Shown: piece after piece, positions 60,979-63,178 of the stretch
Layout: the number at the start of each line of letters is the position of its first letter
Position numbering within the stretch: the first letter of the stretch is position 1
DNA from: Ignavibacteria bacterium
GTDB lineage: Bacteria; Bacteroidota; Ignavibacteria; Ignavibacteriales; SURF-24
Direction: 5' to 3'
NCBI GenBank assembly: GCA_025612245.1
Contig: JAAXKQ010000005.1
Location: forward strand, 1-64,000
Length of the DNA stretch: 64,000 bases
Made by a program: the position numbers and the translations under genes
The notes under the pieces: generated by a model
The model's input: the letters and a program-made list of their open reading frames with translations, nothing else
What the model was told of the DNA's origin: nothing
Database searches by the model: none

Positions 60979-61794
60979 TTAGAATTTCAAGTGCACCATA
61001 TACATCATCTTGTAATGGTCCGCCAGGCTTGAAATTATTTTATTTTTCACTGACAGGCCTTTTTTCATTCCCTTATACATCAGATATTGTTCAGCGGATT
61101 TAAGCTTAATGTCCCACTGCCTGATCTCGGAGGCATCGGGAAGTGCCCACTTCATAAAGGATTTTTCGTCGAGACCAACTTTCTTAATCAGCTGCTCATT
61201 GGCAGCCTTGAGTCCGACGGGGGAGGCCGCGTCAAAAATAAAATCGCTGTCCGGGAAGAAAGACGCGAGGCTACGGAAAATCTGTTTTACTTCCTGCTCA
61301 TTAAAATAATAGAGCACTCCGGCAGCCATGAAAAGAACGCCGTTGCCGGCCCGGATTTCCGGGAACCAGCTTTCATCCAGGAATGAAGAGCTGATGAATT
61401 TTCTCCTGGGTGTTTCCGGAATAAATCTCCGCCTTAACTCAATTACGTCAGGCAGGTCCAGCTCGTACCACATTAGCTTTCCGTTATCAACCCTGTCGAA
61501 GGTTGTATCCAGACCGCAGCCGGCGTTTACAATTGAAGCCTCAGGATGCACCCGAAGGAACTCTTTGATTGTCCTGTCGATATGAATGCTTCGGCATATC
61601 CATTCGAACTGAGTGACGTCCTGTACGTTTAATGCCATCCTGGAAAAATCATAATCGATCTTACTGATAATTTCTTCGGCTGTTTCATCCCGCAGCAAAG
61701 GTTTTTGCTTTCTTGTCTCAATTGCTCTTCCCCACAGGGGAAGGAGTAAAGTTAGCTGCACACTGCCTAATTCGACCGACATTTTTCCCGACAT
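60979..61794 (-). CDS. leucine carboxyl methyltransferase family O-methyltransferase
   Basis: The 271-residue protein has the family's SAM motif, SIVNAGCGLDTTFDRV (about 87-102), followed by MWYELDLPDVIELRR, the aspartate-rich segment of LCM/TcmP-type enzymes. YYFNEQEVKQIF is also characteristic. It should methylate a carboxylate or hydroxyl group of a small molecule; related enzymes act in polyketide tailoring. The N terminus (GSVQLTLLLPLWGRAIETRK) is typical of this branch. It is cytosolic. GGAGAGG lies before the start. It is 79 bases downstream of the GIY-YIG fusion gene on the same strand and could be co-transcribed with it. Confidence 0.88.
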   Translation of the reverse strand: MSGKMSVELGSVQLTLLLPLWGRAIETRKQKPLLRDETAEEIISKIDYDFSRMALNVQDVTQFEWICRSIHIDRTIKEFLRVHPEASIVNAGCGLDTTFDRVDNGKLMWYELDLPDVIELRRRFIPETPRRKFISSSFLDESWFPEIRAGNGVLFMAAGVLYYFNEQEVKQIFRSLASFFPDSDFIFDAASPVGLKAANEQLIKKVGLDEKSFMKWALPDASEIRQWDIKLKSAEQYLMYKGMKKGLSVKNKIISSLADHYKMMYMVHLKF

Positions 61795-61873: not shown

Positions 61874-62917
61874 TTAACTTAAAGTTTTTCTTACTCTTTT
61901 CTTATTGTAGCCCCTTTCGCCATAGGGCTGAAGTTTCTCAAGCCACATATCTTCAAGAACCTCAAGGTCTTTTGCATAATTGTATGTTGCAGGGTAGTCT
62001 TTTTTGGGCTCGAGCGTATCTAATATTTCAAACGCCACCCCGTTTTCACCCAGTTCGTTCCAGGCCTCCTGGAGCTCTTTAATTTCATGAAGGCCCCATT
62101 CTTTCAGGGCAACCATGTGAAGATTCCTTTTCGCTTCCAGGTTCTTTCCGCTTCCGACAAAGATTTTGCCGTTCTTCAGGTTTTTTAACTGGTAGATTCC
62201 CATGGTAGTGTGAGGGTTTTCCTTGTAGTTTCTCACTATTTCTTTTCTTTTTGCCGTATCCATTTTCTTCTCCCTATCTGCCGGCGCCGATAACTTGCTT
62301 GGCGTCTTCTCCAGGCCGGATTTTCTCTGGAATTCGGGGGCATCCGTGCCTGAATTGTTAATGTATTTGGGGTTTACGCGGTAGCTTCCCCTTTCCCTTT
62401 GCATCATGTTTTCATCTATAAAGTAACGTCTCAAAGAGCAGTAGTCTTCGTTTATCTCCTCCAGCATGGAATCAATTTGCTTTTCGGGATATGTCATGGT
62501 TTTCTCAAAGAGCTTTATTATCTCCTCCAGGACAATGAGGCGTTTTTTGTGCTGAGAGGGAATTCTCAGGAGCCGTCCATTGCTGAAGTATGTAGAAATT
62601 ACCTTTTCTCTGTACTGTTTCATCCTTTCATCCTGCAAAGGTTTTTCCGCGTTTTCAAACGAAACGATGTCTTTGAGTGTATTTGAAAAAATATCCTTAT
62701 TTACCGAAAAGACGGCGTAATACTGCTCCTTTTGCCTTAAAACGAGCCCGGAATTTTCCAGCTTTTTCATGTGAAAGCTGACGGTCGATTCCGAGAGGTT
62801 AAGGCGTTTTGCCAGTTCCTCAAGGTACTGCGGCTTTTCCATGAGTGAGTTTACGATTAAAAGCCTGGAAGTATCTCCAAGCGCCTTCATAATATTAATA
62901 CTTTCGTTTATTTCCAC
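61874..62917 (-). CDS. ArsR-type HTH / DUF2087 / GIY-YIG fusion protein
   Basis: The start is placed at GTG 62917 (ATG 62890 is possible), giving 347 residues; a TTG at 62983 would add an unlikely hydrophobic tail. Three domains follow. An ArsR-like winged helix (about residues 8-88 from the GTG) has MKALGDTSRLLIVNSL and LSESTVSFHMKKLE. A DUF2087 domain (about 113-183) has RLLRIPSQHKKRLIVLEEI and YCSLRRYFID. After a polar linker comes a GIY-YIG-type domain (about 236-338) with GIYQLKNLKNGKIFVGSG, a following Arg and His, a Glu-rich helix ending WLEKLQPYGERGYN. The GIY-YIG residues needed for DNA cleavage appear kept. It probably binds DNA; whether it cuts is unknown. A palindrome lies just upstream. 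Confidence 0.85.
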   Translation of the reverse strand: MEINESINIMKALGDTSRLLIVNSLMEKPQYLEELAKRLNLSESTVSFHMKKLENSGLVLRQKEQYYAVFSVNKDIFSNTLKDIVSFENAEKPLQDERMKQYREKVISTYFSNGRLLRIPSQHKKRLIVLEEIIKLFEKTMTYPEKQIDSMLEEINEDYCSLRRYFIDENMMQRERGSYRVNPKYINNSGTDAPEFQRKSGLEKTPSKLSAPADREKKMDTAKRKEIVRNYKENPHTTMGIYQLKNLKNGKIFVGSGKNLEAKRNLHMVALKEWGLHEIKELQEAWNELGENGVAFEILDTLEPKKDYPATYNYAKDLEVLEDMWLEKLQPYGERGYNKKRVRKTLS

Positions 62918-62984
62918 GAAGAGAATTCCAATTGTTATTACTTTGACAAATATCGAAGTAAATATAATAAATAACTTTCTCAAT

Positions 62985-62999
62985 TCAAATATAATTTGA
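62985..62999 (-). promoter_or_regulatory. palindromic operator candidate before the ArsR fusion gene
   Basis: TCAAAT-ATA-ATTTGA is a perfect 6-3-6 inverted repeat, 68 bases before the GTG start. An ArsR-type protein often binds such a site in its own promoter. A second motif, TATCGAA, occurs on both sides of it (62950 and 63008 areas). Confidence 0.45.
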
Positions 63000-63178
63000 T
63001 GACTATCGAATTATATGCCGCCCGTCACAAAAAATTAGAGGCCGGGGAAAAGTATATCCAACTTTGATGCGGTGAAGTTTGCTCCCGAATGAAATCGGCA
63101 AGGCATGGGCGTCACGGCCTGAGAAAGCCATGGGAGAAAATCAGGTCCGCGGCGCCCGGGGTCAGGTATTTGAAATTC

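Follow-up and report, generated by a model that had tools for sequence, protein, structure and literature searches.

What does a protein do that carries an ArsR-type DNA-binding head, a domain of unknown function and a GIY-YIG-type fold in a single chain? The question is raised by a gene within a stretch of 64,000 nucleotides from an Ignavibacteria bacterium (contig JAAXKQ010000005.1, positions 1 to 64,000; hereafter the window), which an initial annotation had described as a three-domain fusion tying a regulator to a possible nuclease. The reading frame is indeed free of breaks and encodes 347 amino acids from a GTG start, a choice that agrees with the N-termini of homologues (MEI.ESI.IMKAL), and each of the three domains was matched (Table 1).

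Table 1. Features of the fusion gene, its promoter region and its downstream neighbor (positions within the window).
Feature	Position	Strand	Basis or remark
Fusion gene: ArsR winged helix, DUF2087, linker, GIY-YIG	61874..62917	-	Pfam, phmmer, AlphaFold2
ArsR/SmtB-type winged helix, residues 1-86	62660..62917	-	HTH_5 48.9 bits; Z 14.7 to ArsR 6j05
DUF2087, residues 115-180, predicted winged-helix-like	62378..62575	-	Pfam 73 bits
Flexible, fast-evolving linker, residues 183-221	62255..62371	-	pLDDT, dN
GIY-YIG-fold domain, residues 239-338	61904..62203	-	phmmer and AlphaFold2 model against I-TevI
Putative operator 2, promoter-proximal	62942..62957	.	TTCGATATTTGTCAAA on the minus strand
Putative promoter between the operators	62958..62994	-	TTG ... 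TATATTTA, Bacteroidota type; alignment of 20 upstream regions
Putative operator 1, promoter-distal	62995..63010	.	TTCGATAGTCATCAAA on the minus strand; 53 bp from operator 2
LCM-type methyltransferase, downstream	60979..61794	-	PF04072 49.6 bits

The ArsR head is recognized both by class profile and by fold: the Pfam HTH_5 match covers residues 16–59 (cut-off 22 bits), and the AlphaFold2 model contains a complete winged helix-turn-helix. It has no cysteine-type metal site, the sole cysteine of the whole protein being residue 160 in DUF2087, and it falls below the cut-off of the NCBIfam HTH_metalloreg model (52.6 against 55 bits). The DUF2087 match (PF09860, which we take to be the same as COG3860; curated cut-off 22.4 bits) includes the conserved motif DYC(T/S)(I/L)RR. 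This domain is predicted to be a second winged helix, given its predicted secondary structure (H-E-H-H-E-E) and weak winged-helix matches in the PDB (best Foldseek E 0.04, Z about 6 with a maximum of 6.3). A linker follows, with pLDDT below 50 at residues 202–215. The GIY-YIG part scores only 16.1 bits against the PF01541 profile, below the 22.6-bit cut-off, and yet we regard the assignment of its predicted fold as secure: phmmer aligns it to I-TevI (1mk0) with E 9e-6 for the full protein and 1.2e-6 for the domain alone, and the AlphaFold2 model (mean pLDDT 92) superimposes on I-TevI 1ln0 with a Z of 12.5 and 2.3 Å over 91 residues (33% identity). The structure prediction thus bears out the fold that had been proposed for the C-terminal part.

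A fold is not an active site, and here the correspondence is incomplete. Residue equivalences were taken from the phmmer alignment to I-TevI, which is gap-free across the Tyr17–Arg27 stretch; it places F253 at the position of Tyr17 and K263 at that of Arg27, with R264 one residue past the latter. Tyr242, His267, His277, Glu322 and Asn338 are kept, and the catalytic set Tyr6/Tyr17/Arg27/His-or-Tyr31/Glu75/Asn90 accordingly reads Y F K H E N, which is not the set of a canonical nuclease. The active-site residues listed in the initial annotation are therefore correct for the GIY-YIG tyrosine, the F-V-G segment with Phe253, the histidine, the glutamate and the final asparagine, while the arginine it counted as retained is not at the catalytic position. 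One reading of this site is that the protein is an active nuclease under tight autorepression (an anti-phage or stress effector encoded by a single gene, for instance), working with phenylalanine in place of Tyr17 and lysine in place of Arg27. The retained Tyr242, His267, Glu322 and Asn338 are consistent with it, as is the residual activity of I-TevI and R.Eco29kI after replacement of the arginine, although in R.Eco29kI this residual activity (R104A, equivalent to Arg27) is about 2%; in the same enzyme H108F and E142A have no activity and N154L about 10% (PMC1952068).

The departures are not peculiar to the window. Among 54 domains of the family, none has the complete I-TevI set; Tyr17 is present in 12, Arg27 in 17, a histidine or tyrosine at position 31 in 35, and Glu75 and Asn90 in 44 each. 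By comparison, 34 other GIY-YIG domains of the same genome set (UvrC and small GIY-YIG proteins), aligned by the same procedure, have Tyr17 in 34, Arg27 in 32, His/Tyr31 in 34 and Glu75 in 33, Asn90 lying outside the control scoring. Catalytic degeneracy is thus a trait of the whole branch, and one that looks new. Small GIY-YIG proteins are often annotated as nucleases by default, and the branch-wide loss of the catalytic set makes that annotation doubtful. All 54 domains share instead an asparagine at I-TevI position 29 (N265 in the window protein).

Degeneracy of this kind could mean that the domain descends from a GIY-YIG homing endonuclease that a regulator captured and is now a functionless relic, and we note that I-TevI is its closest solved relative and that the catalytic residues are eroded. 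Divergence between the window protein and that of a congener (G001) indicates otherwise: the GIY-YIG domain has a dN of 0.125, nearly as low as that of the HTH (0.104), against 0.44 for the linker, with the domains at 0.10–0.15 overall and synonymous sites saturated. Because the asparagine is invariant and purifying selection is strong, the comparisons show a GIY-YIG domain that is maintained rather than decaying; the repetition of fusion or pairing described below also speaks against a relic, and we consider that explanation very improbable. Since the canonical catalytic set is lost, binding to a DNA or RNA structure is the likeliest role of the GIY-YIG part, or else cleavage that is weak or chemically altered; an ordinary nuclease is disfavored. 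Weak cutting is possible, in that nine members have Tyr6, Arg27, His31, Glu75 and Asn90 and miss only Tyr17, and a lysine at position 27 is a conservative change.

The joining of these domains had been thought unusual, but it recurs across the order, and the same architecture was reported in a 2006 survey (PMC1564403). In a sample of 164 genomes of the order, 28 carry an HTH-DUF2087 protein of this type; it is fused to GIY-YIG in nine, has an adjacent GIY-YIG gene in 18, lying downstream and often overlapping, and is at a contig edge in one. The fused state changes five times on the GIY-YIG tree, and because at least four of these changes are forced by well-supported branches, fusion has either recurred or been undone. 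About 30 further genomes of the order have the GIY-YIG protein alone, with no HTH-DUF2087 partner. Outside the order, DUF2087 and GIY-YIG are fused on Bacillota plasmids of Priestia, in the same order as in the window, and are neighboring genes on a Peribacillus plasmid, with a weak LuxR-type (GerE) match. A search of viral contigs found no relatives, and one of phage records gave only homing endonucleases and weak matches. Two loci merit separate mention. Upstream of one stand-alone GIY-YIG gene (L149, G340:C10) the DNA, though interrupted by stop codons, still matches the C-terminal portion of DUF2087, possibly a decaying HTH-DUF2087 partner, and at L079:5692-7167 (G173:C40, minus strand) DUF2087 is found at the C-terminus of a saccharopine-dehydrogenase-type protein that has no DNA-binding head.

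The region upstream of the HTH gene contains two 16-bp palindromes with the consensus TTYGAYRNNYRTCRAA. The initial annotation had pointed to one palindrome here; it is present, and is moreover doubled and conserved as a pair. Of 26 loci with the genes fused or paired, 20 have the two copies 53–56 bp apart, or five helical turns, and such a pair occurs in a fraction of 0.0002 of shuffled upstream regions. Bacteroidota promoters have a TTG at -33 and TAnnTTTG at -7, and alignment of the 20 upstream regions reveals a TTG(AC)...TAnnTTT promoter between the paired palindromes. This conserved promoter cassette with dual palindromes looks new. By contrast with the fused and paired loci, none of 22 stand-alone GIY-YIG genes has a strict operator site upstream (one has a site with two mismatches). 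Many GIY-YIG relatives thus stand alone with neither regulator nor operator, so the function of the domain does not need the regulator, a point against the module favored below.

The exact palindrome occurs at only two places in the window's genome (4.84 Mb), both at the gene's own promoter, and when up to one mismatch is allowed the number of sites (22) stays below that of a reversed-pattern control (56). By the simplest reading of this confinement, the protein is very likely a dedicated autorepressor, with the proviso that a scan by strict consensus would miss degenerate sites elsewhere. In 14 genomes other exact matches are few and mostly near the reversed-pattern control, with more in G056, G277 and G022; six of the extra matches were inspected, and most are inside reading frames, with one in G019 before an unrelated ArsR gene. 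A strong operator-like palindrome lies within a reading frame at L130:3977 (G056:C56:17476), far from the regulator gene.

Another explanation is that the protein is a conventional ligand- or damage-responsive regulator whose GIY-YIG fold serves as a sensor and which acts at degenerate sites on further targets, among them the methyltransferase gene downstream. That gene is on the same strand, at a distance of 79 bp in the window and 3 bp in G001, and may share the transcript of the fusion gene; such an operon would be confined to this genus. The completeness of the ArsR winged helix is in keeping with such a regulator, and BtmL, a Streptomyces protein with DUF2087, modulates a biosynthetic gene (PMC7113386). 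Nonetheless, strict operator sites are nowhere else in the window's genome, the methyltransferase is next to the fusion gene only in the window's genus, and the GIY-YIG domain stands alone in many genomes and is therefore not a mere appendage for sensing, so that a sensor-regulator seems quite unlikely.

Surrounding genes offer little that would place the locus in a defense system. Apart from generic families, an all-against-all comparison of the ORFs from 43 loci turned up no neighbors common to different lineages, no recurrent defense or mobile-element genes were seen around the loci, and no defense-system model fits the whole protein. PADLOC matches to Csa3, CasR and CARF models, which might have indicated a restriction-modification or CRISPR link, span only the generic winged helix, and we rejected them. 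Membership in the Uzume anti-phage system was likewise set aside; relatives match only the C-terminal GIY-YIG part of UzuA, and a comparison with UzuA at E 0.1 gave nothing for the window protein. In favor of an active nuclease, UzuA is a validated defense protein whose GIY-YIG domain is related to some members of the branch (E 7e-7 to 3e-5), and tight autorepression would suit a toxic product. But UzuA has the canonical residues and lacks DUF2087, and with neither defense model nor recurrent context to support it we think an active nuclease rather unlikely. The device first envisaged thus survives as a regulator joined to a GIY-YIG fold, whereas its DNA cutting is weakened as a proposition by the two substitutions in the window protein, the absence of a complete site across the family against near-complete controls, and the lack of defense-gene context.

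We favor, with confidence somewhat better than even, an autorepressed effector module whose GIY-YIG part is a nucleic-acid binder or a poor cutter. Its ArsR-type domain, which probably dimerizes, would bind the two palindromes, spaced by five helical turns, on either side of the module's own promoter, with two dimers probably acting together on the two operators and DUF2087 acting as a second nucleic-acid-binding winged helix; occupancy of the dual operator would shut off the promoter and keep the transcript low. The main output of the circuit would be the GIY-YIG domain on its flexible linker or, in the split relatives, a protein encoded separately within the two-gene operon, and any altered chemistry would center on the invariant asparagine and the retained glutamate and histidine. 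I-TevI sets a precedent: it too has a GIY-YIG domain and acts as repressor of its own promoter (PMC2988022). Repression, dimerization, operator cooperativity and a nucleic-acid target are all elements that we infer. A more ambitious proposal, which we put forward tentatively and as less than probable, is that these proteins form an undescribed GIY-YIG-fold family in which the nuclease site has been dismantled and a new asparagine is invariant, the proteins acting as a nucleic-acid sensor or an effector of altered chemistry and repeatedly wired, by fusion or operon, to a private dual-operator repressor, so as to make a self-contained stress or genome-defense switch. The two-part system with its defined 16-bp operator is directly testable, and it gives a way into the study of DUF2087, a domain of unknown function in thousands of proteins.

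Among known systems, the nearest in architecture is a Symbiobacterium thermophilum protein (GI 51893458) in the survey of Dunin-Horkawicz (2006), with a winged helix, COG3860 and GIY-YIG in the same order as in the window; its head is a LuxR-type module rather than ArsR-type, the available excerpt presents no analysis of its operator, gene pairing or active site, and the architecture as such is already known (PMC1564403). No paper naming DUF2087 and GIY-YIG together was found in the open-licence literature. BtmL and similar ArsR-like regulators with DUF2087 have an SmtB/ArsR-like winged helix followed by DUF2087, as here, but BtmL is presented as a single putative regulator for the bottromycin cluster and the available part of that paper mentions no GIY-YIG domain (PMC7113386), which the window protein has. 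UzuA, too, is a single protein whose C-terminal GIY-YIG domain shows a detectable relationship to this branch; it differs in its N-terminal part and in keeping the canonical residues. UzuA-like Bacteroidota proteins (L104–L108 and L110) have these canonical residues in a C-terminal GIY-YIG domain, which suggests that Uzume is a nuclease-based defense. I-TevI shares the fold and, like the window protein, carries it on a linker to a DNA-binding part, although its GIY-YIG domain is N-terminal, the reverse of the order here, its DNA-binding part is different, and the window protein has other residues in place of its Tyr17 and Arg27; I-TevI occupies an operator that overlies its promoter and acts there as a repressor without cutting efficiently (PMC2988022).
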